Below, one piece after another: positions 3,837 to 24,954 of a stretch of DNA of 64,000 bases (within the stretch, counting starts at the first letter, position 1; every line of letters begins with the position of its first letter). The notes under the pieces are model-generated. The model was not told the DNA's origin. It worked only from the letters and a program-made list of their open reading frames with translations, and did not search any database. The translations under genes and the position numbers were made by a program. Origin of the DNA: Lyophyllum atratum (lineage: Eukaryota; Basidiomycota; Agaricomycetes; Agaricales; Lyophyllaceae); assembly GCA_014905825.1 (NCBI GenBank), contig JACGCN010000018.1:682001-746000 (forward strand), in the 5' to 3' direction.

Positions 3837-4459
3837 TATTCGTTTGATTCAACTTCTTTGTTTTCGTGGCTACGACTACACACTCTCTTTGGTCACTCCC
3901 TTGGTTGCTTGCTATCTATGCCTGTTTTTTTGGTTCATTCGCTTCACCCTTGTTTTCTTGCTAGATAGAAACGTGCACTGGCTTGCTGGGCATATTGCAC
4001 TTCATAGACTCACTCATACTGCATCCTTCATCATTCGCATCTTCCACATATCTACAGTCCCACGTGGCGCCGTCTCGGATATGCAGTATACTTGGTATAC
4101 GCTACTATGCGGTCGTAGATAATCATTTCTGTACATACTAGGATCGTCTTGCATAGGAGTGATGATAGGAATTTATATATCAACACTTGGCTCCTACTCT
4201 GCCAAGGTTTGGTTCGGTTTGAATATGTACCTAACCTGGAAGGCCACCCACGTCAACCAAGCAGTCGTTGCTGTTCGGGCTTGAGTAGTATCGTTGGTGT
4301 TTTAGTACAATCTGCAGCTTCTGATGAAGTCGAAGTCCTTGGGCCCCGTCTTGCTTAAGCTCTCACTATTTGATGCTTAAGACCACGATTGAACAGGGGG
4401 ATCCAGTCCCGCAAGGTGTATATTCCATAGTATCTACACCCCAACCCACCAAAAGCCCT
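3837..4459. other. Convergent intergenic region
   Basis: T-rich sequence between the 3' ends of the flanking convergent genes. It presumably holds both 3' UTRs and polyadenylation sites. No coding region, repeat or RNA gene is seen. Confidence 0.5.
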
Positions 4460-5382: not shown

Positions 5383-5568
5383 AACGTTCAACGTTGCAAC
5401 TTGTGTCGAGACCGGTCTCGATAACTTGGATAACCAGTTCACGGGGGATCGCACAGCGTCCTGAAAGGCATCATGTCGTTGATCATGCCTTTATGTCTCG
5501 TCTAGGTGGAGTTGCGTCCCCGTTCCTCCGTGTTCCCGTGGTGACAACAAAAAGATGTTGATGGTGTT

Positions 5569-8155
5569 TCCCCGACTCTCTTACGTAAGTAAGAGGGAGG
5601 GTTTTGTCGGACTCGAACGACATTTGTCCCGCCAACTCTGGAAGCAGTCACGTGTCGCGTCCCACGGTTCACCATTCCAACAATTTTCTTTCACTTTCAG
5701 TCCCTTGCTCATTCACCAGCGTCTTCGAGTGCTCTCACTTCTTATATACTCCCTCGGCGTCATCCAAAAAAACTACATACTGGACCGTAAACTTCTATTG
5801 TGCTCCAACTCATTACCACATACATCGACTACCACATACCGCGTGAACTACCACATACGACGTGAACTACCACATCTATCTTGTGTACTACCACACGCCC
5901 CACACACCGATGTTCCCTCTCATAAAGTTCCCCTGTGTGCTTTCCCGTGTCATTGACAATGACCTGTGCCCCCCTCATGACACTGAGTGCTGCATTGACG
6001 ACTTTCCTCAGTACTTCGACGCACTGTATCATCCAGATCTTCATCCTGAAACTTCTTGAATGCAGAATCCGTCTGTGACTGGCTCAGTTCTATCTTTACC
6101 GAATATTCCCCACTGCCGTGCACGCCCTTTCTGACATACTTTGCAAAATCATCATTCCACGTCTGCAATCTTCTTACGAGGTCTGTCCTTTCCCTCCCTT
6201 ACTTCCAAATATCGTCTTCATCTTTTCATCCCTCTTCAGTACTCAGCCTTTTTGCTCCAACTCCATGTTCTTCGTCCCATCCTACTTGGTTTTATTTCCA
6301 GAAGTCTCATTACCTTCAATCCCTTCACGACCTCCCACACACTGTCCTTCTGCATGCTTTCAAGCATCTTCACTTAGTCTTACCTCACAAATACAACAAG
6401 CACTCATTAATTTTAGCTCTCTTCCACCATTTCATTCAGCATCGCATGCACTGCTTATCTATCTCAAACACACAGCTCCTTAACTCATTACCCTCTTCTC
6501 TCCTCCTCAACACTGAAACTCCTTATCATGTTCTTGTCTATCATAATACCATCCTCAAATTTGGAGAAGTTATCACACACTCTTTACTCAAGCCCCAATC
6601 TCTTTCGAAAAACTCAATCATCTACGCTCAGCATATCAATTTACTTCAACAATTACTGTCCCTCACAAATGAAGTAAGCTCTCCCTTATCTGCTAAGCAA
6701 TTTTCCAAAAAAAAAACTAGCTTCTGTCATGAATGGTCTTCATCCTTCCAGGCGCATTTCATTCAGCCACAGTCATGTCAGCCGCTGCACTGCAGTTATA
6801 ACGAGTTTCCGCGAGCGCTGCGAATCACTCATGTCTTGCACACTCTCGCAACTTCATGATTTTCTTTACTGCTATCTCCCGACCTCTGCCGAAAATTTCC
6901 CTAATTCATTTGACGCTTCAGTATGTCTTCTCCTCCAAGTGGAATATACCGAATCCGTGTTTTCCGCCCTTACTAAATCCCGCACTCTCCGCCAACAGCA
7001 ATTTAACAAATCCGCTCGTGCTACGCTCCGCTCAGAACAAGCAACACTAGAACATGCGCGCCAGCAACAAATCATTTCCGCCTGGCCAACTGTTCCTAAC
7101 GAAGATGTCGTCTTCGACTGTCTGCGCAACTATCGCGCAGGATCTATGTGGACTGCTCCTCCAACTTGTGCATCATGCTCACGTTCTCAGAAACACAGCC
7201 CTGTTAACACTTTCAATATATCAACTGCCAGTGCTGCCCGCGACTTAAATATCTATCTTCTGACATGTTTCGATGAAAGGTTCTCCCGCGACTTCTCTTC
7301 CCTTCCAGGCATATGTGAAGGTCTAATGCTTGATGCAGCTGGCATCGTAACCCATGCTGATACTGTGAGTGTAAACTTGTGCTCAGATTGCCATTCCGAG
7401 CTTCAAAAGGGCAAAATACCGCGCTTCGCACTCGCAAATCACTTGTACCGAGGGCAACTTCCACATAAATTCAAAGACTTGACATGGGTGGAAGAAATGA
7501 CTTGCGCAATTTACCGCAATACCGCATATGTCTCCCGCCTCTATGGTTCATCAGATCCCAGTCAAGCACGTGTCTTTCGGGGCAATACTTGCGCTCATGA
7601 TATGAATGTGGTCTCCACAGCGACTGCGCTGCCGCTTACTCCCACTCAAGTGAATGACATGCTCTCTGTCGTGTTCATTGGTCCAGGACAGTATAAGAAA
7701 AAATGCTTGGAGAACATGTTTCGCGTGCGGAAGTCCAAAATCTGGGACTTTCTTGTGTGGCTAAAAGATGAGGCACAGAACCCTCTTTATCAAAATATCA
7801 CTTTGGAAAAGCGGCATTGCGATATGTATCCTGATGATGACATACTTCCTGGTGTGGAGGAGCGCACAGTTCATGATGCATACCTCAACCCTGAGCAGAC
7901 TTTTGAAAATGAAACTGCAGGATTTCAAGATCATCCGGCCCTGCAAGTCACTGATGAAGATCCTTCTGCAGATGACCCCATAATCTTCCTTGAGCATATG
8001 GGTGTCTCTGATCCTGAAAATGTCAAGCTTCATGGGCGCACATTTACTGCATCTGCACTCCACACTCTTATTAAGAAACCATCAGAGCAGCCTGATCTTA
8101 TCATTCATCGAGGATCGCGCGCTGTACCTGAGTACGAAAACCCAAAACTCTTTCC
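5569..8155 (+). mobile_element. Truncated 5' copy of the Helitron
   Basis: This 2,587-bp segment repeats the first 2,587 bp of the complete element that follows at 8156. It starts with the same TCCCCGACTCTC terminus and hairpin, and ends where the full copy would continue at 10743. By eye the two copies differ at only two places. One T is missing in a TTT run near 6054, and there is one extra A in the A-run near 6711-6717 (10 versus 9). Both shift the reading frame, so the ORF here is broken into pieces (about 5862-6059, 6056-6859 and 6729-8543). The copy lacks the Rep, helicase and 3' end and cannot be autonomous. Confidence 0.85.
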
Positions 8156-8182
8156 TCCCCGACTCTCTTACGTAAGTAAGAG
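8156..8182 (+). repeat. Helitron 5' terminus and subterminal hairpin
   Basis: TCCCCGACTCTC (8156-8167) is the 5' arm of the asymmetric terminal inverted repeat. It overlaps a perfect hairpin: CTCTTAC (8165-8171), loop GTAA, GTAAGAG (8176-8182). The same structure occurs in the truncated copy at 5569-5595. Confidence 0.75.
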
Positions 8183-8496
8183 GGAGGGTTTTGTCGGACT
8201 CGAACGACATTTGTCCCGCCAACTCTGGAAGCAGTCACGTGTCGCGTCCCACGGTTCACCATTCCAACAATTTTCTTTCACTTTCAGTCCCTTGCTCATT
8301 CACCAGCGTCTTCGAGTGCTCTCACTTCTTATATACTCCCTCGGCGTCATCCAAAAAAACTACATACTGGACCGTAAACTTCTATTGTGCTCCAACTCAT
8401 TACCACATACATCGACTACCACATACCGCGTGAACTACCACATACGACGTGAACTACCACATCTATCTTGTGTACTACCACACGCCCCACACACCG

Positions 8497-11400
8497 ATGT
8501 TCCCTCTCATAAAGTTCCCCTGTGTGCTTTCCCGTGTCATTGACAATGACCTGTGCCCCCCTCATGACACTGAGTGCTGCATTGACGACTTTCCTCAGTA
8601 CTTCGACGCACTGTATCATCCAGATCTTCATCCTGAAACTTTCTTGAATGCAGAATCCGTCTGTGACTGGCTCAGTTCTATCTTTACCGAATATTCCCCA
8701 CTGCCGTGCACGCCCTTTCTGACATACTTTGCAAAATCATCATTCCACGTCTGCAATCTTCTTACGAGGTCTGTCCTTTCCCTCCCTTACTTCCAAATAT
8801 CGTCTTCATCTTTTCATCCCTCTTCAGTACTCAGCCTTTTTGCTCCAACTCCATGTTCTTCGTCCCATCCTACTTGGTTTTATTTCCAGAAGTCTCATTA
8901 CCTTCAATCCCTTCACGACCTCCCACACACTGTCCTTCTGCATGCTTTCAAGCATCTTCACTTAGTCTTACCTCACAAATACAACAAGCACTCATTAATT
9001 TTAGCTCTCTTCCACCATTTCATTCAGCATCGCATGCACTGCTTATCTATCTCAAACACACAGCTCCTTAACTCATTACCCTCTTCTCTCCTCCTCAACA
9101 CTGAAACTCCTTATCATGTTCTTGTCTATCATAATACCATCCTCAAATTTGGAGAAGTTATCACACACTCTTTACTCAAGCCCCAATCTCTTTCGAAAAA
9201 CTCAATCATCTACGCTCAGCATATCAATTTACTTCAACAATTACTGTCCCTCACAAATGAAGTAAGCTCTCCCTTATCTGCTAAGCAATTTTCCAAAAAA
9301 AAACTAGCTTCTGTCATGAATGGTCTTCATCCTTCCAGGCGCATTTCATTCAGCCACAGTCATGTCAGCCGCTGCACTGCAGTTATAACGAGTTTCCGCG
9401 AGCGCTGCGAATCACTCATGTCTTGCACACTCTCGCAACTTCATGATTTTCTTTACTGCTATCTCCCGACCTCTGCCGAAAATTTCCCTAATTCATTTGA
9501 CGCTTCAGTATGTCTTCTCCTCCAAGTGGAATATACCGAATCCGTGTTTTCCGCCCTTACTAAATCCCGCACTCTCCGCCAACAGCAATTTAACAAATCC
9601 GCTCGTGCTACGCTCCGCTCAGAACAAGCAACACTAGAACATGCGCGCCAGCAACAAATCATTTCCGCCTGGCCAACTGTTCCTAACGAAGATGTCGTCT
9701 TCGACTGTCTGCGCAACTATCGCGCAGGATCTATGTGGACTGCTCCTCCAACTTGTGCATCATGCTCACGTTCTCAGAAACACAGCCCTGTTAACACTTT
9801 CAATATATCAACTGCCAGTGCTGCCCGCGACTTAAATATCTATCTTCTGACATGTTTCGATGAAAGGTTCTCCCGCGACTTCTCTTCCCTTCCAGGCATA
9901 TGTGAAGGTCTAATGCTTGATGCAGCTGGCATCGTAACCCATGCTGATACTGTGAGTGTAAACTTGTGCTCAGATTGCCATTCCGAGCTTCAAAAGGGCA
10001 AAATACCGCGCTTCGCACTCGCAAATCACTTGTACCGAGGGCAACTTCCACATAAATTCAAAGACTTGACATGGGTGGAAGAAATGACTTGCGCAATTTA
10101 CCGCAATACCGCATATGTCTCCCGCCTCTATGGTTCATCAGATCCCAGTCAAGCACGTGTCTTTCGGGGCAATACTTGCGCTCATGATATGAATGTGGTC
10201 TCCACAGCGACTGCGCTGCCGCTTACTCCCACTCAAGTGAATGACATGCTCTCTGTCGTGTTCATTGGTCCAGGACAGTATAAGAAAAAATGCTTGGAGA
10301 ACATGTTTCGCGTGCGGAAGTCCAAAATCTGGGACTTTCTTGTGTGGCTAAAAGATGAGGCACAGAACCCTCTTTATCAAAATATCACTTTGGAAAAGCG
10401 GCATTGCGATATGTATCCTGATGATGACATACTTCCTGGTGTGGAGGAGCGCACAGTTCATGATGCATACCTCAACCCTGAGCAGACTTTTGAAAATGAA
10501 ACTGCAGGATTTCAAGATCATCCGGCCCTGCAAGTCACTGATGAAGATCCTTCTGCAGATGACCCCATAATCTTCCTTGAGCATATGGGTGTCTCTGATC
10601 CTGAAAATGTCAAGCTTCATGGGCGCACATTTACTGCATCTGCACTCCACACTCTTATTAAGAAACCATCAGAGCAGCCTGATCTTATCATTCATCGAGG
10701 ATCGCGCGCTGTACCTGAGTACGAAAACCCAAAACTCTTTCCTGGTATGTATCCTACTCTATATCCTTATGGAATAGGTGGATTTGAAGACCGCACTCGA
10801 CCTACTCCATTGGCCCTTGAAGCGCAAGCAAACTATTGCCTGGATCTTGCTGACCGCTCTTTCAGATACCATCACTCATTTATGTTTGTTCTTCTAAACA
10901 TTATCCAGCGCCGGACGGGACACCTCCACACTTCACTCAGTGTAAAGAATTCTCGATTCAAGCCTGTCGCAGAAAAACTTCTGTCAATATCCCCAGAAAC
11001 TCTAAATGCTGTTGCAGTTCATCTTGAAAAAGAAGGTACGGTGGCGCAACTATCACCTGACGAAAAGCAAGTGCTTGATCTTCTAAATGAAGTTAACACT
11101 GTCTCTGCAAAAATTCCAGGTTCTCATGGTGCGAAAATAAGAGCTCGCAATGAGATTCGCAACTATGTAGCGTACTTTGGTGTACCCATGCTATACTTCA
11201 CAGCAAATCCAAATGCTGCCCATAGTCCTCTTTTTCAGGTGATATATGGTGATACATCAGTGAACCTTGATGATCGTTTTCCAAAACTGGCGTCCAGTAC
11301 GCAGAGAGCTCTGCGCCTGGCCAAGGATCCGGTTGCAGCTGTTGATTTTTTTGAATTTTCCATCAAGTGTATATTTCAATATCTCTTTGGCTGGGACTAT

Positions 11401-14400
11401 GAAACTGGTCAAAGCTCACCAAACGGTGGTATTTTGGGCCATCTCGCAGCATTCTATGGATCACCGGAGCTCACTGACAGAGGTGTTTTTCATGCGCACT
11501 ATGTCATGTGGCCTCTTGGCGCACTGAACCCTAATGAGTTACATGCGCGATTGAAGTCGGACCCTGCGTTTGATGCTAAGCTTTTTGCATACTTAGAAAC
11601 CATAATTCATCACCATTTTCCTGACATTGAAATTGCAATCGAAAAAGACTATGAACCGCGAGCAGCGCGCCCTCCTCATGCACCCACTAAATTGAGGACA
11701 GAAGCAGACTCCAACCAATGGAAGGCTTTATTTGACACGGAGATCAAGAAATGCGGAGAAGTGCTCCAGCGGCATACTTGCCAAAACGTATGTCACAAAT
11801 ATGGCAGCATAGAGTGCCGCTTTCAGTTCCCGCATGAGTTAGTTCCTAAATCTTATTTTGATCCCAACACCAACTCTCTGTATCTCCGCTGCCAAGATGC
11901 AACAGTCAATTACTTCAACCCTCATATTCTTGTTTACTGTCGCCATAATCATGATCTGAAATGCATTGTTTCCGGCAAGGCAGCTAAAGCTGCGATGTTC
12001 TACATCACTGACTATATTACAAAAACAAGTATGAAGACCTATGAAATGCTGTCTTTGCTATCTAAGGCTGTTTTGCGCACTTCCTCTCAAAGCAATCCAT
12101 CTGACAGTCCCGCAGCAAAGGCGAAGTCTCTTCTATACAAATGCTTGGCTCAGTTTACGAAGCAACAGCAAATTCATGCTCAGCAAGCCGCATGGTATCT
12201 CCGAGGACATAGAGACAGCATACCCTCTCACAACACAGTGCCCATGTTATCAAGCCTTTTGCTACTCCATGTGAAAAAAAGTCTCCACACTTCCGCCCAC
12301 AACACTAGCACTGGTGATCAAGATGCAACTGCAGAGGAACCTGTCAATGACATTGAGGATGTCTCTCTTAGAATTTCAACAGACAGTGAAGGTAATCTCA
12401 GAACCATGACTCAAGTTGATGACTATATTTACCGCGACTCAGCCCTGGCACATATTTGCTTCTACGACTTTGTCCAGCGCTTCAGAATTGAATCTAAAGG
12501 AAGGCAGACACCCCACAACTTTGACAAAGCAAGGTTAGGTACATACAGGCGCTACGAACTATTGCATCCCCATAAACTGTGCAACACACATCAGCTTGTA
12601 GAACACACAAACTTCGAAAGAGGTGATGGCACTCAGCTGCTCATACCTCGAGTTATTGGTCTCTCAATACCCCGGACAACAGCGCCATCGTATCCACTAT
12701 TTGCCTTAAGTCACTTCAAACCCTTTGCATTTAACAACGCTCTTCTCAATCCAAATGAATCTGCTACTGATATATTAAGCACCTTTGAATTTTCTGACTT
12801 AGGGAAAACAGTTCTAAAAAATTGGGAAGCAATTCATGAGTGTGAAGATGAGCGAGATGCTGAGCGCCTTAGCAAAAAAGAAGCAGCAACCCGCGAATCA
12901 AAAGCCATGACTCGCGCAATGGCTGGTGTAGACGACGAATTGTTCCTAGAGCCCAGTGCAGACTTTGCCCACAAAGACTTCTTGCTCAGCGCTGAACTGC
13001 TCAGATTGCATGCAAGTAACTGGCTTACCACTCCGCCCCAGAACCCTGAACTCAATCGTGACGCTGCACCTCCACCGCAATCCCTTCCAGAGATCACTGC
13101 CCAGAATTTGAAAATCTGGAAAGCTGCAATTGCTGAACAGGAGAAAGCTATGATTACCACCCGCCGGAACACTCTGGATCCAAATAACCAACTTGATGTT
13201 CCTGCACGCGATAATCCAGCAGAAACAGAACTTGGAACAGAAACCATAATTGACTCAGTCGCGCAGTCCGCACACATCCCAGCCACAGAAGCTACGGCCA
13301 CAGGTTTAGCGCCAAGTTTAGAAACAAGAGATCACATGCTCGACCGCATTATTACAGAGGACACTCTAAATTACAAGCAGTCCATAGCATTCAAAATTAT
13401 TTCCAAGGCATATTTCAAGTACATCGATGATGAACGCGAGGGTAAAAATCGCATTGACTCTCATGATTATAAGCCTTATCTGCGCCTTCTTTTATCAGGC
13501 CCTGGAGGAACAGGTAAAACACATGTTGTCAAATCTGTCCGCAAAGTTATGAACGCCACTGGTGATGGCCATAAAATCCGCTTTCTGGCACCAAGTGGTT
13601 CTGCTGCTGCTTTAATTGATGGTATGACAATTCACAAGGGCCTATCGATCAAAGTTGCCAAAACAGGTAAAGGTAACGGCAACCGCGCTGCTGGTGATAT
13701 TGATGAAGACTATTCAGTTCTCTTAAGTGTAAGAAATCGGACAAACTTGCGCGACGAATATAAAGATGTCATTGTACTTTTGATTGATGAAGTCTCACTC
13801 TTAAGTGCACAACTATTGTCAGAGGTTGACCATGCTCTAAGATTTGCCAAGGGAAATAATGAATTTTTTGGTGGGATCCTTGTCATTTTCTCAGGGGACT
13901 TTTATCAATACCCTCCAGTAGGTGGGTCTCCACTGTATAGTCCCATTGGGAATGCTCAATGTGATAGTGAGAAGGAGCTGATGAAGCGCCTTGGTCGAAT
14001 GGCATGGAAATCTGTTACTGAAGTGGTGAATTTAGAGGAGCAGCAGCGCATGAAAGGAGACCCTGAATATGCAGAGTCTGTACTTCGCCTTCGCAAGCGG
14101 GAGTGTACGCAAACAGATGCAGACTTGTTCAACAGCAGAGTCATGAAATCGTTTGATAACCCACATGGTATAGATATGAGCTCTCAGCAGTATTTGTCTG
14201 CGACCGCAATTGTGTCCACGAATTTCTTGAGACAAGGAATCAACATGCAAAAGGCACTTGCCAACAATTCTGACAAAGGCAAAGACTCACACACAAATAA
14301 TTTTGTAATAGCTGCAGCCCATGACACAGCACATGGGAACACCATACCCGAACCCTCGAGAGAGCATCTGCTGAAATTGGACACCTCAAAATTGGCCCAT

Positions 14401-14868
14401 GAAGGGGCCCTACCTGGTTATGTTTCTCTTTACGAAGGAATGCCCATTATCTTGCGCAACAAAAACATATCCACAGAACTGGGTATCACCAATGGCTCGG
14501 CAGGCTTTCTTCGGAAATTCACAACTCAAGTATGCTCTGCAGGTTATACATATTGCACTGGTGCCATTGTAGAGATTCCCACAAGTAAAGTTTTGCTTCC
14601 TGGCTTGCCTCCCAAGCACTTTCCTATTGAACCGCTGAATTGGACATTTTCCGCTAACATTCATTTGCCCTCTGCAGAGCATCTAGAAAAAACAAAACAG
14701 CGTGTGACAAGAAGCCAGTGTTCCTTTCAGCCGGGGTTTGCAAGCACTGGTCATTCCGCTCAAGGTAAAACACTGCCTTCTATCCTCTGCTGGCTTCATG
14801 ACGGTGGTTTCGCAGCCTATGTTGCAGCGTCGAGACCTAATACCCCGCTTTGGCTTAGTAACAGTTGA
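8497..14868 (+). CDS. Helitron Rep/helicase protein
   Basis: Replication initiator and helicase of the rolling-circle transposon; it nicks and unwinds the element. The first ATG in the ORF is at 8497, giving 2,123 aa. A region typical of fungal Helitron proteins (DUF6570-like) lies at about residues 510-640. The HUH nuclease motif is FHAHYVMW with His999 and His1001, and the two catalytic tyrosines sit in YITDYITK (Tyr1169, Tyr1173). The PIF1-family helicase follows, with Walker A GPGGTGKT (1668-1675) and Walker B LLIDEVSLL (Asp1764, Glu1765). Near the end the conserved YVAASRP motif is followed by a premature stop. The expected continuation lies in another frame from 14846, because a C-run at 14843-14846 has one base too many. 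HUH, Tyr pair and Walker motifs are all intact, so the enzyme may be active if the frameshift is an assembly error. Confidence 0.9.
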   Translation: MFPLIKFPCVLSRVIDNDLCPPHDTECCIDDFPQYFDALYHPDLHPETFLNAESVCDWLSSIFTEYSPLPCTPFLTYFAKSSFHVCNLLTRSVLSLPYFQISSSSFHPSSVLSLFAPTPCSSSHPTWFYFQKSHYLQSLHDLPHTVLLHAFKHLHLVLPHKYNKHSLILALFHHFIQHRMHCLSISNTQLLNSLPSSLLLNTETPYHVLVYHNTILKFGEVITHSLLKPQSLSKNSIIYAQHINLLQQLLSLTNEVSSPLSAKQFSKKKLASVMNGLHPSRRISFSHSHVSRCTAVITSFRERCESLMSCTLSQLHDFLYCYLPTSAENFPNSFDASVCLLLQVEYTESVFSALTKSRTLRQQQFNKSARATLRSEQATLEHARQQQIISAWPTVPNEDVVFDCLRNYRAGSMWTAPPTCASCSRSQKHSPVNTFNISTASAARDLNIYLLTCFDERFSRDFSSLPGICEGLMLDAAGIVTHADTVSVNLCSDCHSELQKGKIPRFALANHLYRGQLPHKFKDLTWVEEMTCAIYRNTAYVSRLYGSSDPSQARVFRGNTCAHDMNVVSTATALPLTPTQVNDMLSVVFIGPGQYKKKCLENMFRVRKSKIWDFLVWLKDEAQNPLYQNITLEKRHCDMYPDDDILPGVEERTVHDAYLNPEQTFENETAGFQDHPALQVTDEDPSADDPIIFLEHMGVSDPENVKLHGRTFTASALHTLIKKPSEQPDLIIHRGSRAVPEYENPKLFPGMYPTLYPYGIGGFEDRTRPTPLALEAQANYCLDLADRSFRYHHSFMFVLLNIIQRRTGHLHTSLSVKNSRFKPVAEKLLSISPETLNAVAVHLEKEGTVAQLSPDEKQVLDLLNEVNTVSAKIPGSHGAKIRARNEIRNYVAYFGVPMLYFTANPNAAHSPLFQVIYGDTSVNLDDRFPKLASSTQRALRLAKDPVAAVDFFEFSIKCIFQYLFGWDYETGQSSPNGGILGHLAAFYGSPELTDRGVFHAHYVMWPLGALNPNELHARLKSDPAFDAKLFAYLETIIHHHFPDIEIAIEKDYEPRAARPPHAPTKLRTEADSNQWKALFDTEIKKCGEVLQRHTCQNVCHKYGSIECRFQFPHELVPKSYFDPNTNSLYLRCQDATVNYFNPHILVYCRHNHDLKCIVSGKAAKAAMFYITDYITKTSMKTYEMLSLLSKAVLRTSSQSNPSDSPAAKAKSLLYKCLAQFTKQQQIHAQQAAWYLRGHRDSIPSHNTVPMLSSLLLLHVKKSLHTSAHNTSTGDQDATAEEPVNDIEDVSLRISTDSEGNLRTMTQVDDYIYRDSALAHICFYDFVQRFRIESKGRQTPHNFDKARLGTYRRYELLHPHKLCNTHQLVEHTNFERGDGTQLLIPRVIGLSIPRTTAPSYPLFALSHFKPFAFNNALLNPNESATDILSTFEFSDLGKTVLKNWEAIHECEDERDAERLSKKEAATRESKAMTRAMAGVDDELFLEPSADFAHKDFLLSAELLRLHASNWLTTPPQNPELNRDAAPPPQSLPEITAQNLKIWKAAIAEQEKAMITTRRNTLDPNNQLDVPARDNPAETELGTETIIDSVAQSAHIPATEATATGLAPSLETRDHMLDRIITEDTLNYKQSIAFKIISKAYFKYIDDEREGKNRIDSHDYKPYLRLLLSGPGGTGKTHVVKSVRKVMNATGDGHKIRFLAPSGSAAALIDGMTIHKGLSIKVAKTGKGNGNRAAGDIDEDYSVLLSVRNRTNLRDEYKDVIVLLIDEVSLLSAQLLSEVDHALRFAKGNNEFFGGILVIFSGDFYQYPPVGGSPLYSPIGNAQCDSEKELMKRLGRMAWKSVTEVVNLEEQQRMKGDPEYAESVLRLRKRECTQTDADLFNSRVMKSFDNPHGIDMSSQQYLSATAIVSTNFLRQGINMQKALANNSDKGKDSHTNNFVIAAAHDTAHGNTIPEPSREHLLKLDTSKLAHEGALPGYVSLYEGMPIILRNKNISTELGITNGSAGFLRKFTTQVCSAGYTYCTGAIVEIPTSKVLLPGLPPKHFPIEPLNWTFSANIHLPSAEHLEKTKQRVTRSQCSFQPGFASTGHSAQGKTLPSILCWLHDGGFAAYVAASRPNTPLWLSNS

Positions 14869-16234
14869 AAAGGTGACACTGACTAATTTGAATAAACCCC
14901 TTCCTTATGATTTAGTGTTTGAAGCCAAGAGACATGAAATTATGGAGCACAACACCTTCGTTGCTCATAACTTTAAGGTTGGAAATTTCATTCCTGTTCC
15001 CGATGCAGAAGGCGAGTATAGAAAGTCCCAAAAAATCGGAAGACCCACTTTTCCAGAACCTGACCCACCAAAAAGGAAGAATCAGAACACTAATGCGGCC
15101 GCACGCAAAAAATTAAAAGGAAGTCACACTCACGTGCGCGGCGCCCAGTTAGAGCCTGCAAATGCGCTAAACAAGCGAAAATCACTTTCACCGCCTCTGC
15201 AGCTGCGGCCTACTAAAAAGCAAAAATCAATGGAAGAATGCAGTGCTACACCTGTTCTGCACAGGTACTGCTCTCCTGATGTTAGGAATACAAGCGCATG
15301 GCCTCTCATGCCGCAAGGCTTCCAATGGGACTCGCAAAACTGGTCCTGCGCGTACGACTCAGTCCTCGCTTGCTTTCTATCAATGTATCTTCAGCTTGAT
15401 AACATTGAGCGGCAAAAGTGGGTATCTCTCAACGTGTGGAGATCATTTCTTGGTGAGCAGTTTGATATACTATTGCACCCGGATTCTGCTATAAATGCAC
15501 CTCACATAATGAACGCACTGCGAAATGCATTCAGGAATGAACTGTTTGCCTGCAACCCTGACTTATTTCCTCGAACAGGTCTCATAGCTATCAGTGCAAC
15601 TGACATCACCGCCATGATTGATGACCACCCAAAGTGGCGCAACATGATACACACTACTCACTGTGATACCTGTGGCACAAGTACAAAAACAGCTGTTGAA
15701 GTCCTTGACTTTGGCTTTTGCCCATCACCGGGCTCGGAAGCGGGAATTGAACCTACTCCCTACACAACCCCGCAGATGTGGATAGACTTATATATTGCTA
15801 AGGCTATGCGCCGCGCATCCCCCACTTCCAAGCTGGCTATCCAAAATTGCACTAGAGAACATCAGCAGCACTGTACTAGTGCGCTACAACAGTTCCTTGT
15901 GTACGAAGATATTCCTACATCCATCACATTTGAAACAAGCTTCTCTCTCTCTGTGCCTCTGTATCCCACAACTGAAATCACTCTATATTCAGCTACCCGA
16001 TCTCATAAACTTGCTCTTAGAGGCATAGTCTACGTTGGGAGCAATCATTTCACAGCCCGCACTCTCGACAATACTTCAATATGGAACTACGATGGGGCGC
16101 AGCACAATGGCTGCCCTCAGTTCTACAGCACCCATGACAATGCTGCATGCATTCGACGGGATCTGACCGAAAGTGAAGATGGTGCTATTGTGCGAAACAT
16201 GCATCTATTAATATACGGAAAAGTCGTGCAGTAA
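14846..16234 (+). CDS. Frameshifted helicase C-terminus plus cysteine-protease-like domain
   Basis: This frame continues the helicase protein past the frameshift at 14843-14846. It starts with the usual end of PIF1-type Helitron helicases (GLVTVEKVTLTNLNKPLPYD), then a basic linker rich in Lys and Arg that may be a nuclear localisation signal. From about codon 150 there is a papain-fold, USP-like arrangement. A Cys box NWSCAYDSVLACF has the candidate nucleophile Cys168 of this fragment. A CxxC-type cluster HCDTCG follows, and a His box SNHFTART has candidate His401, followed by WNYDG. Deubiquitinase or OTU-type proteases fused to Helitron helicases are known from other lineages. Assignment here is by motif only. 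The fragment is 462 aa and ends at a normal stop. Confidence 0.65.
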   Translation, partial: RFGLVTVEKVTLTNLNKPLPYDLVFEAKRHEIMEHNTFVAHNFKVGNFIPVPDAEGEYRKSQKIGRPTFPEPDPPKRKNQNTNAAARKKLKGSHTHVRGAQLEPANALNKRKSLSPPLQLRPTKKQKSMEECSATPVLHRYCSPDVRNTSAWPLMPQGFQWDSQNWSCAYDSVLACFLSMYLQLDNIERQKWVSLNVWRSFLGEQFDILLHPDSAINAPHIMNALRNAFRNELFACNPDLFPRTGLIAISATDITAMIDDHPKWRNMIHTTHCDTCGTSTKTAVEVLDFGFCPSPGSEAGIEPTPYTTPQMWIDLYIAKAMRRASPTSKLAIQNCTREHQQHCTSALQQFLVYEDIPTSITFETSFSLSVPLYPTTEITLYSATRSHKLALRGIVYVGSNHFTARTLDNTSIWNYDGAQHNGCPQFYSTHDNAACIRRDLTESEDGAIVRNMHLLIYGKVVQ

Positions 16235-16410
16235 ATCACAAGTGATTGGCTTGCTGGAATGCGCAAAAGCTAACCCGAATACTCCAAAATCGCGAGTAAT
16301 AACGCGCCAAACACTCTCAAGTCCTTTCCTGAGACATCTTGTCATATGGCAAATTTGCTACATAGCTTCATACCACTGCGTCCTCGCACCAATTATTAAC
16401 ATATAACGTG

Positions 16411-17911
16411 TCAGGCGTAGAGTTCGTCATCACTCTCATCTAATGCAGCTTCAGCACCTGCACGGTTGAATAGTCCAGCGACATATTTCTTCCAAACACC
16501 AGGGAGTCGGTTGGATGCAACAAAAGACAGTCCTCGCTGGCAAAACGTCGGCTTCACATCGCAAGGATGGACATCGGGAAGGCTCGTGCCGTGTTCCTCC
16601 TCGGGGATCCAAATAATGAGTGTGTTAGCTGCTGCCTGTATGCGTATACTATATCGGGCAAGGTAAAAATGGCACCCAGCCTCGACGCCTTGGTTGCGAG
16701 ACAGCGTCCATGACGCTGCATATGTATGTGGTTGTTTCTCCTTGTGAGTAGCACTGGAAATGCAACGGGAAGATATTAGTGTGCTATTATGCAAAGCATA
16801 TGACGAGCAGCGTACCGGGAGTAATTCTGGCCAAAGACGCCCGTCGGAGGTGCAAGTTCAACGTTGTGAAAGTCGAACGAATGCTCTCCAACATCTACTG
16901 AATAGGTGCCCCTCTGCTGACCCGGTGCCCCACACATCTCGCCGTTACCATCCATCCGCTCAGCTGAGTAGTGTTGAGATATTTATCGAAATCGCCAATG
17001 ATTTCTTCCGGAAGCCTTGCGCGCATCAGCTGCCACGCCAAAGCAAACACGGAACTGCACTTCACGTCCGACTCTATGACTGATGCAGCATCTGCGGGCT
17101 TGCGCAGCAAGTTTCGGACCCAATCAAAATGCGGCTTGCTCCGCGCTCCAGCAGAGTATCCGATCTGGATGAGTTTCCCTGGATCTTCCATCTGCATATG
17201 TTCATCACTAACATGTATGTGGACAGCTGATGTCAAACGCACCCGTATATTCTTCCGCTGAGGGATCGCTTCTGCAACAATAGCTTCAGCCCACGCAACC
17301 ACATCTTCGTCTGGGCAGAAGTTGCGGATGACCATCCCCACGATTCGCCCCGTCGCATCAACGAAAATGACGCTCTCTTCGGGTCCGACATCGTACATGA
17401 GCTTTGACAAGTCCACGCGGTGGATTGGCAGCCTCCGCTTCCGGCGATCTGGCTGAGTGCCCAATCGAAAGAATTTGTCCCATTTCCCAAAGCTCGAGCT
17501 CGTCTCTGAGATGATTTCACCCAGCGGCGGATATGCCTCTGAGAGCGGAGCGACAACCTTCGTAGGAATTTTGCTGAGATACTCTGCGCGATTGAAGTTG
17601 TTGGAATTAAGTCCCATGTTCCTAATGAAGCAAACTCTTGCTCGGCGCTCCTTCTTCTGCGAAGTTTGGCACTCTTGCAGCAGATCTGATAGCACGCTAG
17701 GAACAGTTGCATGGCCCTTGCACCAAGACCAGAATGTCTGGATGCCTCCCTGGCTGTCCAAGTGGCAAGAAATGTCGTGGGCGGCTGCAAGCTCCCGGAC
17801 GCGGTTGGTGAAGGCTAGACTGTTTCCATTCCGCAAGAATTCCATCGCTAAAGCATCGCCAGCCACCAGTTGAATCGTAGCATCCCGGCGGAGAGTGTCC
17901 TTTTTCGCCAT
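16411..17911 (-). pseudogene. Dioxygenase-fold-like gene inside the Helitron (one frameshift)
   Basis: A minus-strand gene, complement(join(16411..16753,16816..17911)). The start is the ATG at 17911 (MAKKDTLRR). The intron has donor GTACGC and acceptor TTTCCAG. A missing base in an A-run near 16984-16987 shifts the frame between DFDKY and the continuation SAERMDGNGEMCGAPG. Allowing for it, the protein is about 479 aa. The C-terminal third looks like a double-stranded beta-helix oxygenase. It has a HKE triad (in the place of HxD/E) just after the splice site, then AGCHFYLARYSIRIQ and NTLIIWIPEEEHGTSL, the last with a plausible distal His, and a later Arg. This layout resembles fungal 2OG-Fe(II) oxygenases, including TET/JBP-like proteins tied to transposons, but the exact family is inferred. 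The 161-bp satellite begins about 250 bp upstream of its start. Confidence 0.5.
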
Positions 17912-18159
17912 GCGTCCAGGAGGTTGAGGTCTGGGACTGCACTGTTCGAAGTCAGCCAGCAAACAACTTCGATGCTGCGACCGCCTCCACCTCCTGCCAC
18001 GGTGCTTCGCATCTGCTCCCTGCAGCCCAAGCTCTGCACACTTAGGTGCTTCTTCACTACATCTTGGCCCACGCCAGATTCTTGGTGCTGATCACTCTCC
18101 GTGTGCGGCAGTGACTGGGTTGCAGCGCAGGCCGCTCTGCAGCCGATGTGTTCCCCGCC

Positions 18160-20216
18160 GCGGCCTTGGTAGGTCAGTTCTCATCCAATATCTTTGGTCT
18201 TGGGCTTTTTCTGAACCTATTCCTGCAGTAGAATTTGGGTATGCCCTCCCTGGAACGACCCACCCGCTCAGTTCATTGCAGGAGGCCGAAAATTTCGATT
18301 TTGGGGTATATCATGCCACCAGGGCCTTGCCAGGTCAGTTCTCACTCAATAGTTTCGGTCTTGGGCTTTTTCTGAACCTATTTCTACTGCAGAACTCGGG
18401 TATGCTCCCCCTGGAACGACCCAGCCTCTCAGTTTGGTGCAGGAGGCCGAAAAAAGCGAATTTGGGGCACACCAGGCCACCAGGGCCTTGCCAGGTCAGT
18501 TCTTCTTCAATAACTTCGGTCTTGGGCTTTTTCTGAACCTATTCCTGCAGTAGAATTCGGGTATGCCCTCCCTGGAACGACCCACCCACCCAGTTCATTG
18601 CAGGAGGCCGAAAATTTCGATTTTGGGGTATATCATGCCACCAGGGCCTTGCCAGGTCAGTTCTCACTCAAAGACTTCGGTCTTGGGCTTCTTTTGACTT
18701 TATTTCTACTGTAGAACTCGGGTATACCCTTCCTAGAACGACCCAGCCTCTCAGTTTGGTGCAGGAGGCCAAAAAAAGCGAATTTGGGGCACACCAGGCC
18801 ACCAGGGGCTTGCCAGGTCAGTTCTTCTTCAATAACTTCGGTCTTGAGCATCTTTTGAACCTATTTCTACTGTAGAACTCGGGTATACCCTCCCTAGAAC
18901 GGCCCAGCCTCTCAGTCTGGTGCAGGAGGCCGAAAAAAGCGAATTTGGGGCCCACCAGGCCACCAGGGCCTTGCCAGGTCAGTTCTCACTCATTATCTTC
19001 GGTCTTTTGCTTTTTCTGATGCTGTTCCTACTGCAGAACTCGGGTGAGCACTCCCTGGAGCGACCCAGCGACTCAGTTCATTGCAGGAGGGCGAAAAAAA
19101 GCGATTTTGGGGTATATCAGGCCACCAGGGCCTTGCCAGGTCAGTTCTTCTTCAATAACTTCGGTCTTGGGCATCTTTTGAACCTATTTCTGCTGCAGAA
19201 CTCGGGTATGCCCTCCCTGGAACGACCCAGCGACTCAGTTCATTGCAGGAGGGCGAAAAAAGCGATTTTGGGGTATCTCAGGCCACCAGGGCCTTGCCAG
19301 GTCAGTTCTTCTTCAATAACTTCGGTCTTGGGCATCTTTTGAACCTATTTCTACTGCAGAACTCGGGTATGCCCTCCCTGGAACGACCCAGCGACTCAGT
19401 TTGGTGCAGGAGGGCGAAAAAAGCGATTTTGGGGTATATCAGGCCACCAGGGCCTTGCCAGGTCAGTTCTTCTTCAATAAGTTCGGTCTTGGGCATCTTT
19501 TGAACCTATTTCTACTGCAGAACTCGGATATGCCCTCCCTGGAACGACCCAGCCTCTCAGTTTGGTGCAGGAGCCCAAAAACTCGGTTTTGGGGTATATC
19601 AGGCCACCAGGGCCTTGCCAGGTCAGTTCTTCTTCAATAAGTTCGGTCTTGGGCATCTTTTGAACCTATTTCTACTGCAGAACTCGGATATGCTCTCCCT
19701 GGAACGACCCAGCCTCTCAGTTTGGTGCAGGAGGGCGAAAAAAGCGATTTTGGGGTATATCAGGCCACCAGGGCCTAGGTAGGTCAGTTCCCCTTCAAAA
19801 ACTTGGGTCTTCAGCTTCTTTTGACTCTATTTCTACTGTAGAACTGGGGTATACCCTCCCTGGAACGACCCAGCCTCTCAGTTTGGTGCAGGACGTCGAA
19901 AAAATCGAATTTGAGGCATATGACGTCGCCAGGGCCTTGCCAGGTCAGATCTCCTTCAATATTTTTGGTCTTCGGCGTTTTCTGAAGCAATTCCTGCTGT
20001 AGAACTCTGGTATGCCCTCCCTGGAACGACCAAGCCTCTCAGTTTGGTGCAGGACGTCGAAAAAATCGAATTTGAGGCATATGTGTCGCCAGGGCTGCCA
20101 GGTCAGATCTCCTTCAATATTTTTGGTCTTCGGCGTTTTCTGAAGCAATTCCTGCTGTAGAACTCTGGTATGCCCTCCCTGGAACGACCAAGCCTTTCAC
20201 TCCATTGCAGGAGGTC
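18160..20216 (+). repeat. 161-bp tandem satellite, about 12.7 units
   Basis: The anchor CAGGTCAG recurs at 18170, 18331, 18492, 18653, 18814, 18975, 19137, 19298, 19459, 19619, 19780, 19941 and 20099, giving periods of 158-162, mostly 161. The first units alternate two types (TCTCACTC after the anchor versus TTCTTCTTC), a dimeric higher-order pattern of about 322 bp. Units from 19137 to 19619 are nearly uniform, and the last three diverge. As 161 is not a multiple of three and frames change from unit to unit, the ORFs here are not genes. The array lies between the two minus-strand cargo genes. Confidence 0.9.
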
Positions 20217-20403
20217 GATGAACTGTGATGCCGTCAGGGCGTACCTATGCCAGTTTCAAGTTATTGCCCTCTGTTTCGGGCTTTTTCGAATCCTGCGTCT
20301 CTTTCGAACTCATTTCCTTCTGCCACCGGCTTTCCGCAATCAACTTCAGATGTCGCGCTTTCATTGTGCTCCAAATCGTGTATTACCAGATACAAGCCGA
20401 AAG

Positions 20404-21674
20404 TCAACCTAGCTGCGTGTCCATATCTGACGGCAGAGCTGAGTGCAAGGTCGTCATGGATAAATTACATTCTGCAACTGTGACTTCCTTGTTTCTCTCA
20501 TGAGTTATCTCATCTCCTTCGCCACTCTCTCGAGTGCGCTTGGCAACGATAGGCACAACTTCATCAAGGCCACGGCGTCGCTTAGGAGCTATGATAGTTG
20601 TAGCCACGCGCGACTGGCTGCGCAGAGCGTCTTGATGGGCTCGGATAAGCTGCAAAAGCAGTTCAAGCTTATTGTAGTATGACTCCATTGACAGGGAAAT
20701 GATCGCACCTCGCTTCCAATGCGACTCAACCTTAGAACTGAGTCCAAGCGAGACAGAGGCACATACGACCGACCGACTTTGACTGCACGGAAACACATGG
20801 ATATTTCAGCAATATGCCCCTTCCTAAAAGACGCTGGAGGTGTGGAAGCCTTCTTGCCTCCGCTGCAAGAACATGTTAGTGGGAAAGTCATGCGTGAGAG
20901 GTAAAAACACACCCATGAGTATCGGGAACGACTTCCAGAAATTCCACAATGTTATCATCTGTAAACACATATTCCCCTGCACCCAAAATGTCGTGGAGTA
21001 CTCGATCAGGATCATATCCATCAGGTATGTCTGCAGTGGAGAACACATTTTGCTCCAACGGCGTGATGAACCGTGTGCCTGCGTAAAGTGCATCTACGCC
21101 CCCAACCGTATGAGCATTCAGTGGACGCAACTGGCCCTCCTGCAGATGCTCATCAAAATACTGATGAATCATCGCCAGAGCCTTCAAAGCTCTCTGGAAC
21201 TGAGGATTCTCGAAAGCGACAAGTGAAACAGACATCATGATATCGCGACGATTGGCTGGATTGAACCTGTAAAGTCGGATGTTGAGACACAATAAATCTC
21301 TGCAGACGGGCAAAGCACGCACTTTGCATATTTAGTGATTGGAGGCAACACAGTAGCACCGATAATGCCAGACACATCCAGCACCACTTCCTCTCCTGTG
21401 CCACGCCATTCCAAGAACATGTAGCCACCTGGCTTCGACTGAACTTGAAACTCCTGTCGCACTTTATCCAGCGTATCGTATTTGCAGAGCTGAAATGCAC
21501 CATGCTCTGGTGATGTCTCTCGTATATTGCACCAACGGTCAACCCACGCTCCTACAATCAGCTGGTATTAACAGCAGTCCATGGATGGAGGTGAGGAATT
21601 CATTACGCACGACATTGCTTATCATTGAGCACATTCACTAATATGCCTGGAGGAAGTTCGACGGTGCGTGGCAT
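20404..21674 (-). pseudogene. Unknown basidiomycete-type gene in the Helitron (one frameshift)
   Basis: The function is not recognised. Model: complement(join(20404..20862,20913..21266,21323..21551,21611..21674)). The start is MPRTVELPPG. All three introns have GT...AG ends (donors GTGCGT, GTGCGT and GTGTGT) and consistent phases. In the last exon one base is missing in the A-run near 20729 (frame change between LRLSRIG and KRGAIISLSM). Visible blocks are WCNIRETSPEHGAFQL, EWRGTGEEVVLDVSGIIGA, PPITKYAK and a region DIPDGYDPDRVLHDILGAGE. A basic C-terminal patch PKRRRG could be a nuclear signal. I recall similar sequences as high-copy unannotated proteins in Agaricomycetes. Carriage between Helitron ends suggests it is long-term cargo. 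If the missing base is an assembly error, the gene is intact. Confidence 0.5.
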
Positions 21675-22114
21675 GTTCAAACAGAGTAAGAACTGGGAGA
21701 GTGTGCAAGCACCTGTATATTTGCAAATGGTGCATGGACCTGGGCGTCGATGCACCCTTAAAAAATTCCTGTATGACGAATACAGGTACATGTTTATTCC
21801 TCCGATCCGAGTCCTATGCAATACTGCAACCTGTTTCCCCAGTCAGCGTCCACTATCACTGGATATTACTATTCTACACATACCCTGCTTCTCCTCTCAG
21901 CAGCCATTTGTTATGGATATCGCGAGCATCGTTGAGTGGGCCATGAATGAAGGCCCGTGCTTGCTCCAATGGCTGACACCAAAAAGCACGGCTATGATCG
22001 AGATAGGTAAGAAATTTTGAGAAAAAACAAGACCCCTGAAAACTGACCGATCAGATCCTCTTTTTACGCTATAAAGACCTGTGCGTCGCACGCCAAGAGT
22101 GTTCTGAGCATTCG

Positions 22115-23407
22115 ATGTCGACTAGAAGCAACAGGTACGCCAACATTGAATGAACAAAAATGTTCCTAGTGCTGATGCACTTTCCTCCATGTCAGAGGCC
22201 CCAAGCCTAGTGAAGGCCCTTTAGTGGCAGATGCAGGAGCAGCTGCGAGCAGGTATGTGCGACGGCTTCGACTTGTGAAACTGAAGATGGTCAGATCTTA
22301 TCTAATCACTTCCATAGCCGCGACAATCCACCAGCAAAGACGCCTGCAACGCCTCCAAAGCGTGCTGCCGAAGACTCAGCAACTTCTGGCATGGCAGGTG
22401 GTAGCCCTTTGAAGAAAGCAAAGGTGGTGTGAGTGATTTCTTGCGAGCCGCTTCAGACGCTGCAAACTCACAATGTCAGCAGCTCTCCTCCCACGCCCAT
22501 AGTTTTGAAGCGCATCGCCGTCGAAACCACTTCAAATGTTGGGCCACCAAGCATGGTCAACCTAGAGTCTGCCTTTCACCTCTCTGCCAAGCCACGGCTC
22601 CATGGTCTCGACACACTCCAGCCAGCGTCGACATGTCTCATAAACCTTGCAGTTGCAAACTCCTCTTCTCTCCGTGTCAAAAATGGATTCATCTCCCACG
22701 CAGATGACCCTGGCGTCAGCCGCATCTTTCTAATCGGAATGATCACGAACAGTTCCCTGACTGAAGGTGCCAAGGCTCGAAGCGTGTCTGTCGCATTTTC
22801 CGATCGCACTTTTGAGCGTGCTATGGCAGTCGCAGGTGCAGTGTTGGGCAAGACGAGACTGGTCGTGCCGACGTACAACAACGGTATATCTATATCGACT
22901 TTCAAGAAAACAGGTGAGCTGCACAGACACTTAACCTATATTGATGCTCACGGTATGCTCAACCAACAGCGACTTCCCCTGCATCATCATCCACTCCAGC
23001 ATCGCCGTCTAAGAACAAATTGGCCCCTTCAAAGGGTATGGTCTGGGGACGACCCGTGAAGGCATGGGATGAAACGAGTGTGTACATGACTCTGTCTTGC
23101 CTGTCTCTGCCCACTGACATTCTTAAAAGTTGTGCCTTACGATGGGAGGAAGCCATTCGACCTCCTGAAGTATCGTCAATTGCCCTTAATCAATGGGGAA
23201 GTCGATGAAAGTACTGCTGTCCTCGCTATCTTCACGCTAAGCTCATGGGCGAATGCCAATGAAGAAACGGTGTTGTCATTCAACATTCAAGATGTCATCC
23301 TTCTGCGAGACGCTGACGACACGGACGGAGTACCTCAGGCCACCTCAAAAGCTCTTTGGATGGAAGATGAGGCTGAAGCCGAGGAGCCTTCTGGTGTCGT
23401 ATTATAG
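22115..23407 (+). CDS. Intact six-exon Helitron cargo gene, unknown (possible ssDNA-binding)
   Basis: Model: join(22115..22134,22196..22252,22318..22428,22480..22913,22970..23077,23130..23407), 335 aa. Every junction keeps the phase and every intron is 51-65 nt with GT...AG. The N-terminus is short and Ala/Ser/Pro-rich with a basic PPKRAAED...PLKKAKV stretch. The middle half (from VLKRIAVETT to VVPTYNNG) and the C-terminal block (VPYDGRKPFDLLKYRQLPL, then a hydrophobic VLAIFTLSSW and VLSFNIQDVILL) look like compact beta-rich domains. The tail is acidic. The stop codon lies 130 bp from the Helitron 3' end. Plant and animal Helitrons carry RPA-like single-strand-binding proteins, so an OB-fold role is a reasonable guess, but no diagnostic motif is seen. 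Confidence 0.7.
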
Positions 23408-23499
23408 ATTATGTATGCGACTCCGACATGTACTGCGTTCCCTGACTGCGGTAACATAGAAAATCAAAAAATCAGGATGCACCTGTTATGAATCCGTGG

Positions 23500-23537
23500 G
23501 AGAGTCGGGGATTGGCGCTTGCGCCGTGAGGATCTAA
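23500..23537 (+). other. Helitron 3' terminus
   Basis: GAGAGTCGGGGA (23500-23511) is the exact reverse complement of the element's first 12 bases. It is followed by the short palindrome GGCGCTTGCGCC (23514-23525) and, 8 nt further, CTAA (23534-23537). The hairpin-spacer-CTRR layout is the classical Helitron 3' end. Confidence 0.75.
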
Positions 23538-23714
23538 TTTTATGCCTACTGTATCACGCGCTTATCATTACGAGCTTGAGTTGCATGTCAGTGTCACTGG
23601 ACCCAATGAGCGTATCGTTTGAGGCACAGGTGGCTGCGCATTTCAAGGAAAAAATCAAGACTGGAACCCTGGCGGAGCAAACCCATTTAAATGCCATCCA
23701 AAGGATATCTAAAA

Positions 23715-24954
23715 TCAAGAACTCGTAGGGCTAATGATCCCCCCATCGTGTACAGCATAACCCGAACTCTTCATCGCCCGTGCCCTCAACCGCAGCCGAA
23801 TATCGTCCCACCGCGACGAGTCCTGTCCAGGGGACATCACGTCCGCCGCACTATTCAAAGGCGTCGAGAAACTCGCGAACGCCCCTGCCTTGGCCAGGGG
23901 TAATTCCCCAAGGGCTGGGCGGACACGAGGCGGGAGCGGGGGCGGGGGCGACGCAACGACAAGGTGCGAGAGCGAAGTCGCGTTGCGTTTATGTTTATTC
24001 TGCTTGCGCAGTGCCTTCGGAAGCGGAGAGGGCGGACGGCGAGGCTTCCATGTCGAAGGGAGCGTCGACCGGTTCCGGGGTACAGCCTCATGTTTCTCTA
24101 GAGAGAGAGCATGCAGGTCGTCTTTGGTGCTAGGGGCGTCTTGGGAGCTTTCCATAAATCTAAGGCTAGGGGAGGGGAGGTTCATGAGGATTTGGGGAGG
24201 CAGCGCAGGGAGGAGAGGTCGGTCTTCCTTATCGATGGGGCGGGAGGAGGACTGGTGGACCGAGAGTCGAGAGATCATTTTGTCTATCACCCTTGAGGAC
24301 ATGCGAAATTTCTTCATTCTCGCGTTGTTAGCTTCCTTTGACGAAGGTTTCTCCTCAACGGTCCTAGGTGGCCCAACCTCCATAGGCTTTCCAATCATGG
24401 GTAACACCGTCTCCTCCAGCACTATCTTCTCTTCCACCTTGACTTCTCGAACCTCTCTCGCTTCTTCCAAGTCCGATTGAGCATCCTCTCCCTCCTCATC
24501 CGAGCCCAAGAAAGGATTCACATCCACAGTAGCACTCTTCAAATCCAACACAAAAACATTCACCGCCGCACTCCGAGGCTGCACAGCGCGCCTCCAAGGA
24601 CCCTCCTCCACAGGCGTCATCGCAAGCCCAAACCGCCTTCGATTGACCCTGGTTTCAGAGAACATAGGCGGAGAGATATGATAAGACTCCTGGCTGTACA
24701 TGCTTGCACTCGTTTTCGGCGCAGCCGAAATCGTGTACCGCAAGCTGGCAAGGGTGATCAGGTTTTCCTGCACATAAAAAGTACATCAGTCATGGAAAGA
24801 GTAAAAGAACATCGCGACAACACACCTCGGAGTCACAGGAATAAGCATAGGAATGTCGCTCGACAAGGGGCAGCGTCAAGTGCAAGGCACCTGGCCTGCT
24901 GATTCCTTTCGTCTGTCTCGCCGGATCAAGTTGAGCGTAACCTGAAGGGGCCAT
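23715..24954 (-). CDS. Hypothetical Ser/Pro-rich protein
   Basis: The function is not recognised. Model: complement(join(23715..24767,24826..24954)), 393 aa. The 58-nt intron has donor GTGTGT and acceptor ATGTGCAG, joined in phase 0. The start MAPSGYAQLD is the first ATG upstream in frame. The N-terminal 130 residues (PGALHLTLPLVERHSYAYS, then NLITLASLRYTI and a segment ending in NVFVLDL) look folded and may be a beta-rich domain. An acidic stretch with DEEGED follows. The remainder is Pro/Ser/Arg-rich and probably disordered, except for a short motif SRWDDIRLRLRARAM near the C-terminus. The Helitron 3' end lies about 177 bp beyond the stop, so the insertion is in this gene's 3' flank. Confidence 0.6.

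Follow-up and report, generated by a model that had tools for sequence, protein, structure and literature searches.

The DNA analysed here is a stretch of 64,000 nucleotides from Lyophyllum atratum, called the window below (contig C62, positions 682001-746000, in a genome of 64.76 Mb). It contains a Helitron-like element with a Rep/helicase frame, a protease-like end of that frame, a dioxygenase gene (gene 1), a satellite array and two more spliced genes (genes 2 and 3), all between the two ends as the first-pass annotation of this DNA had described. A partial copy of the element, which that annotation did not mention, stands directly in front of it. The features are listed below in window coordinates; the HUH, two-tyrosine, Walker A and protease-like motifs were identified by eye.

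5569..8156, + strand: partial copy A, the first 2587 bp of the element (T plus CCCCGACTC...), broken inside Rep and abutting the first base of the full copy
8157..23533, + strand: full-length element B, 15,377 bp, CCCCGACTCTC...GTGAGGAT, with the same ends in C76, C71 and C24
8157..8189, + strand: 5' terminus, with a 12-nt inverted repeat (including the preceding T) and the hairpin CTCTTAC-GTAA-GTAAGAG
8497..14868, + strand: Rep/helicase frame with DUF6570, Helitron_like_N and PIF1
11488-11511, 11998-12024 and 13498-13521, + strand: HUH, two-tyrosine and Walker A motifs of the Rep/helicase
14869..16234, + strand: C-terminal continuation, cysteine-protease-like (Cys 15335-15361, His 16037-16057, Asp 16079-16096)
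16411..17911, - strand: gene 1, TET/JBP-type 2-oxoglutarate-Fe(II) dioxygenase, exons 17911-17243, 17191-16816 and 16753-16411, HxE at 16726-16749
18162..20218, + strand: satellite array, 161-bp unit, 12.7 copies
20404..21674, - strand: gene 2, a 348-aa orphan with 5 exons, the same protein as FPV67DRAFT_1453586
21913..23407, + strand: gene 3, 379 aa, 7 exons, the last gene before the 3' end
23500..23533, + strand: 3' terminus, with the inverted repeat GAGAGTCGGGGA, the hairpin GGCGCTTGCGCC and the end GTGAGGAT

Ends, copies and empty sites

Copies of the family were sought genome-wide with two queries, the first 244 and the last 158 bases of the element, which gave 20 and 8 matches; all whole-genome counts are lower bounds. 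Full-length copies were found on C62 (15,377 bp), C76 (15,379 bp), C71 (17,889 bp) and C24 (14,905 bp). Contigs C62 and C76 could be aligned over 30 kb including both flanks at 99.8% identity; inside the element they differ by 1 substitution and 16 one-base indels, and over some 12 kb of flank by 2 substitutions and 33 indel events. Judged by this alignment, the C76 copy is not independent of the C62 copy. The C71 and C24 copies have no flank in common with C62, and with C76 counted as the C62 locus this makes three independent insertions, all carrying the same gene block between the same ends. The first-pass annotation had asked for a test of such a recurrence of the cargo and had named copies that end elsewhere, for example just after the helicase, as a refutation; the cargo does recur at C71 and C24, in this same genome, and the independent copies keep the same two ends. 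As a side observation, almost all differences between C62 and C76 are short indels, and the assembly seems to be redundant in contigs and to contain homopolymer errors.

Where exactly are the ends? The 12-base start TCCCCGACTCTC at 8156 has a single inverted recurrence in the window, at 23500-23511, followed by a hairpin, just as had been proposed, and the 26-base 5'-end pattern occurs at positions 5570 and 8157 only (chance expectation 0.00). A T precedes the CCCCGAC start in 19/19 distinct 5' junctions (these count one locus twice, on two contigs, and include the inner junction of copies A and B, so that 17 host sites are left); therefore the element starts at 8157, after T. A left outer flank of T had been claimed, but position 8155 is C. 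The 8 matches to the 3' end represent 7 distinct junctions (C76 repeats C62), and all seven read G(T/C)GAGGAT with A as the next base in four and T, C and G once each. Because the bases after this motif vary, CTAA is host flank, and the 3' end is 23533 instead of the 23537 first given. It should be noticed that these GAGGAT ends were BLAST matches to a query with the same end, so that other endings could escape the similarity search; a relative on C64 ends with CTACGAT instead.

Two empty sites support the corrected ends. The flanks of the C62 copy match an unoccupied site on C35 (left 93% over 1,353 bp, right 91% over 1,876 bp; junction GATGGTGTTT-CTAATTTTA), and the flanks of the C71 copy, after another repeat was removed from the left one, match an unoccupied site on C108 at 78% identity (CAAGCCCTTCC-T-AATAGTAATAC). 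Neither is an allele of the filled site; both are paralogous loci of this genome. Neither has any gene of the element, contrary to the worry that empty sites might show the cargo to be host genes, and both have one T fewer than the filled site. The element is CCCC...GGAT inserted after T or, equivalently, with a 1-nt T duplication, and the targets at the two sites are T|A and T|C. Empty sites had been predicted, which was right, but with a TT target, which was not: the C108 site CTTCC-T-AATAG has one T where T|T, the target of Helentrons, needs two. The C35 site GTGTTT-CTAAT is also one T short, but it is the weaker case and C108 carries the weight, because the T-run lengths of C62 and C76 differ, C76 reading one T longer. 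For the C24 copy, 684 bp of left flank were searched in the genome and C24 itself was the sole match. The host DNA around the C62 insertion (window 4219-5568 and 23572-25486) has a 91-93% identical copy at C35:978.9-982.6 kb.

These ends are of the Helitron2 type. The 5' terminal repeat recurs inverted slightly inside the 3' end, 22 nt before it, and hairpins are found at both ends by folding. The CTRR 3' end and the insertion between A and T that characterize canonical Helitron1 are absent from the seven 3' ends found and from the two empty sites, respectively. As in the Helitron superfamily in general, there is no target duplication longer than 1 nt at the two empty sites, and HUH, tyrosines and a PIF1-type helicase are found in one protein.

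The partial copy A moves the left junction of the host to 5569. Its sequence (5569-8156) is 99.9% identical to 8156-10743, the differences being two one-base homopolymer indels. Compared with the C35 empty site, the host junctions are at 5569 (left) and behind 23533 (right), so there is one insertion of about 18 kb, composed of the first 2587 bp and a full copy. Might the duplication be an assembly artefact? The near identity of the two copies would be expected then, and the assembly is rich in one-base indels. The A-B arrangement with the same 2587-bp spacing is present also on C76; C62 and C76 look like one locus, so C76 may not support it independently. But the duplicate begins at the exact first base of the element and the outer flanks match one empty site, and we regard an artefact as improbable. 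The inner A-B junction follows a T inside Rep and so fits the target rule, though about 1 place in 4 would. Copy A may have arisen recently by self-insertion at this T into an older copy, followed by recombination between the two copies; the recombining direct repeats would be about 12.8 kb, and the outcome would be exactly the observed structure. The same structure would be expected from a second start of rolling-circle replication, and the data do not separate the two routes. The exact partial duplication of the 5' end is a trace of the way in which transfer is begun, or begun again, by elements of this kind. A comparable arrangement is described in the text on Fusarium oxysporum Helitrons, where one FoHeli4 inserted beside another's partial 5' end (PMC5148889).

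Gene content and relatives

Pfam recognises PF14214 (E 1.2e-21) and PF05970 (E 3.9e-17) in the Rep/helicase, in which the motifs read HAH and YITDY. The frame is broken in the window near 14843, in a C run; C76, C71 and C24 have no break there, and in C71 the protease-like part and Rep form one frame of 2599 codons from stop to stop. Thus the first-pass count of at least four extra genes comes down to three separate ones. We set aside real decay as the cause of this break and of that at 16959 in gene 1, since each is a one-base indel at or beside a short run and neither occurs in C76, C71 or C24. In a PDB sequence search the protease-like part gave weak rows only (E 0.019 or worse). No apurinic/apyrimidinic (AP) endonuclease, a mark of Helentrons, came up when P0001 and P0002 were scanned with Pfam at E <=0.001, nor when P0002 was scanned at 1. 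The ratio of nonsynonymous to synonymous rates (dN/dS) was calculated with our own script by the Nei-Gojobori method. Before the break, Rep has 0.14 against C71 (17 synonymous, 8 nonsynonymous changes) and 0.43 against C24 (9 and 13); behind it the ratio is 0.19 against C71 (9 and 6), and there are 0 synonymous and 2 nonsynonymous changes against C24.

Gene 1 has the HxE and downstream H of PE-type TET/JBP enzymes. The residues H369, E371 and H420 are invariant in 16/16 alignment rows (gene 1 and 15 of 32 homologs), and over all 32 homologs they are kept in 26/28, 26/28 and 25/25 of those with a residue there. The predicted structure has a TET-like fold; a prediction for P0004 alone was discarded (predicted local distance difference test 33.5). 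Searches of Pfam and of PDB sequences returned nothing for gene 1. Its relatives lie at 8 strong places (C97, C130, C103, C80, C69, C35, C116, C73; 35-64% identity, several with stops) and at the weak or fragmentary ones C75, C72 and C64:615 kb. The strong ones form a dispersed dioxygenase family, away from the 5' ends of the element family.

Does the element carry a sign of DNA methylation? The CpG observed/expected ratio is 0.75 and 0.82 in its two unique parts vs 0.88-1.02 in the flanks, and TpG/CpA is 1.29-1.30 vs 1.01-1.10. The satellite has a CpG ratio of 0.50 with no TpG/CpA excess (1.03), and the insert in the C71 copy has a CpG ratio of 0.97. The base composition suggests that the element underwent methylation-driven decay in the past, and decay of this type would give a TET-type enzyme a substrate.

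Gene 3 is 95% identical to FPV67DRAFT_1699290 over 88% of its length. Pfam found nothing in gene 3 and one row below the cut-off in gene 2. Against C24, dN/dS is 0.20 for gene 2 (348 codons; 15 synonymous, 10 nonsynonymous) and 0.28 for gene 3 (378 codons; 24 and 22); gene 3 against C71 has 2 synonymous and 1 nonsynonymous changes (0.16). In C71, gene 3 is interrupted at the equivalent of window position 22254 by an insert of 2,928 bp that has inverted ends and contains a frame of 742 residues looking, by eye, like a transposase. The satellite query gave 28 matches in the genome, all within copies of the element at five places, on C62, C76, C71, C24 and C64, where C76 repeats C62. The identity between C62 and C24 is 99.64% in the 5' part and 96.26% in the half with genes 2 and 3, and in 500-bp bins the divergence rises from 19000 on, a position within the satellite array, which is the part aligned with least certainty. 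This step fits recombination between element lineages in the satellite.

Rep relatives were traced through 5'-end DNA matches and tblastn on 22 loci. Frames resembling the Rep start stand behind similar 5' ends on C67 (51%, residues 13-414), C64:1711976 (66%, 22-100) and C35:435232 (62%, 22-103), and these diverged relatives have gene 3 homologs of 32-51% protein identity. The C64 relative is a 7,975-bp element ending in ...GAGTCGGGGACTGGCGCGTGCGCCGCTACGAT, and its gene 3 homolog is downstream on the same strand, as is that of the C35 relative at 446.2 kb. End pieces of gene 3 are found even in short non-autonomous copies (475 bp on C35, 49% over 55 residues; 2,174 bp on C130, 39% over 75). 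An older, decayed copy at C64:640-652 kb retains gene 1 at 78-87% protein identity and the satellite at 77% DNA identity, while gene 3 is left as two pieces that are 88% identical and contain stops; their relative orientation is that of the window. For gene 1 the situation is different. Of its 11 other places, none is closer than 20 kb to a 5' end found by the first-244-base search, so the TET-type gene is not the fixed partner of the ends that gene 3 seems to be.

A probable Helitron2-like transposon and its extra genes

Taken as a whole, the element is very probably a Helitron2-like rolling-circle transposon with autonomous-type gene content, because of the shared ends, the gene block common to all three independent insertions, and the two empty sites. 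From what is known of the family, Rep with its HUH motif and two tyrosines would nick after T at the 5' end, the PIF1-type helicase would peel off one strand, and the inverted repeat and hairpin at the 3' end would stop the unwinding, so that the product joins a target after T.

Some points weigh against this explanation or against parts of it. No transposition was observed. None of the copies read is shown to be complete in all genes: C24 has an in-frame stop in Rep just upstream of the two-tyrosine motif, C71 has the insert in gene 3, and the window has its two frame breaks. For the protease-like domain, neither Pfam nor PDB gave a recognised family. For gene 1, 2/28 homologs are without the iron-binding H and E, the Foldseek template modeling scores to TET structures are modest (0.33-0.39 by query), and the changes in exon 1 (1 synonymous and 3 nonsynonymous against C24, 0.92; 2 and 3 against C71, 0.46) are too few to tell selection. 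The CpG depletion suggests methylation-type decay in spite of the TET-type gene, so that protection would be incomplete. Gene 2 has only 1 synonymous and 2 nonsynonymous changes against C71 (0.61). Among the relatives, no 3' end could be recognised for that on C35 within the 4.7 kb that were read, and on C67 gene 3 lies 15-16 kb away on the strand opposite to the 5' end.

Could the transposon be a small Rep-only Helitron beside a host locus with the dioxygenase and the other genes? Most Helitrons are smaller, as the first-pass annotation remarked, and gene 1 does have relatives elsewhere in the genome. However, C71 and C24 carry the complete block within the same two ends but in other host surroundings, and neither of the two paralogous empty sites has it, which together refute this idea and leave it next to no probability. 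A more serious alternative is that genes 1-3 are passively captured cargo without a role in transposition, still present only because the copies have had little time to lose them. Gene capture by Helitrons is a known phenomenon, and for gene 1 the account is helped by its absence near the ends of diverged relatives and by the scarcity of changes for a selection test. It explains less well the dN/dS of genes 2 and 3 against C24, reached at a synonymous divergence of 0.06-0.09, the recurrence of gene 3 in diverged relatives with a similar 5' end, and the older copy on C64 that still holds gene 1, gene 3 pieces and satellite. Passive cargo is thus possible but somewhat doubtful.

What might the extra genes do in the Helitron2-like transposon? 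The predicted TET-type enzyme would oxidise the element's methylated DNA and thereby counter silencing, the protease-like tail may shield Rep from ubiquitin-dependent loss, and gene 3 would be a core accessory factor of the lineage, not captured cargo. More tentatively, we propose a toolkit of a mushroom Helitron lineage. In it the Rep-protease fusion would act against protein turnover, the TET-type enzyme against DNA methylation, and the conserved last gene, gene 3, in transposition, perhaps with a role like replication protein A (RPA) as in plant Helitrons, and the element-specific satellite would serve for exchanging gene halves between copies. Well bounded and backed by copies and empty sites, the locus exemplifies a Helitron in which a TET-type gene and little-known genes move as a unit, and it opens two testable questions: whether a transposon-borne TET protects its own element, and whether gene 3 is needed in rolling-circle transposition.

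Comparison with known systems and minor observations

A TET-positive Helitron2 from Agaricus bisporus is described in PMC12730594, together with PE-type enzymes in transposons of A. bisporus, Laccaria and Gymnopus. The likeness, drawn from the description in that text, is this: a Helitron2 in an Agaricales mushroom, a dioxygenase with HxE for HxD, and a TET-like structure; Lyophyllum is not mentioned in the main text. In the HELPO1 Helitrons of Pleurotus ostreatus, RepHel is followed by one to four additional genes, of which some are orphan and expressed; HELPO1.3 is drawn with a satellite, and copies reach 13.7 kb (PMC4289320). They differ in that the 13.7-kb copy contains a long terminal repeat (LTR)/Gypsy insert and its sister is 7.1 kb, the four-gene copy of 12.2 kb is non-autonomous, RepHel is about 1400 aa, the text examined has no TET-type gene, and its authors report no cysteine protease domain (PMC4289320). 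FoHeli1 and FoHeli2, Helitron2 elements of F. oxysporum, share the 12-nt asymmetric inverted repeats, hairpins at both ends and insertion beside T with the same terminal-T ambiguity, but are 5-6 kb long with other terminal sequences and, as described, no extra gene in either subgroup (PMC5148889). Animal Helentrons with OTU or VTD deubiquitinase domains also have a cysteine-protease-type domain in the Rep protein, but they carry the AP endonuclease that Pfam did not find in the Lyophyllum element, whose own protease-like domain belongs to no matched family (PMC9741609).

The first-pass annotation had suggested a distinct, gene-rich branch of fungal Helitrons. Gene 3, common to diverged relatives with a similar 5' end, speaks for a branch, but its gene-richness is not peculiar, as TET-carrying Helitron2 (PMC12730594) and multi-gene Helitrons (PMC4289320) are already published from other Agaricomycetes, so far as the texts consulted go. 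The element enlarges the recently described group of TET-carrying Helitrons. A literature search over titles and abstract openings, with subscription journals thinly covered, found no publication on a Lyophyllum Helitron.

Some further observations were made around the family. A 10,685-bp unit at C141:290221-300904 has the same ends and no Rep match; one of its frames resembles a Plavaka-type transposase, and the unit may be a short copy enlarged by the insertion of another transposon. At C108:191976-193843 two family 5' ends point towards each other over a distance of 1.9 kb. At C119:1552.7-1555.0 kb, a distant Rep-like frame (25% identity over 800 columns) and a non-autonomous copy of 634 bp are separated by about 2 kb. 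In the right flank of the window insertion, a 174-bp direct repeat is present at 25320-25489 and 28509-28682 with 87% identity.

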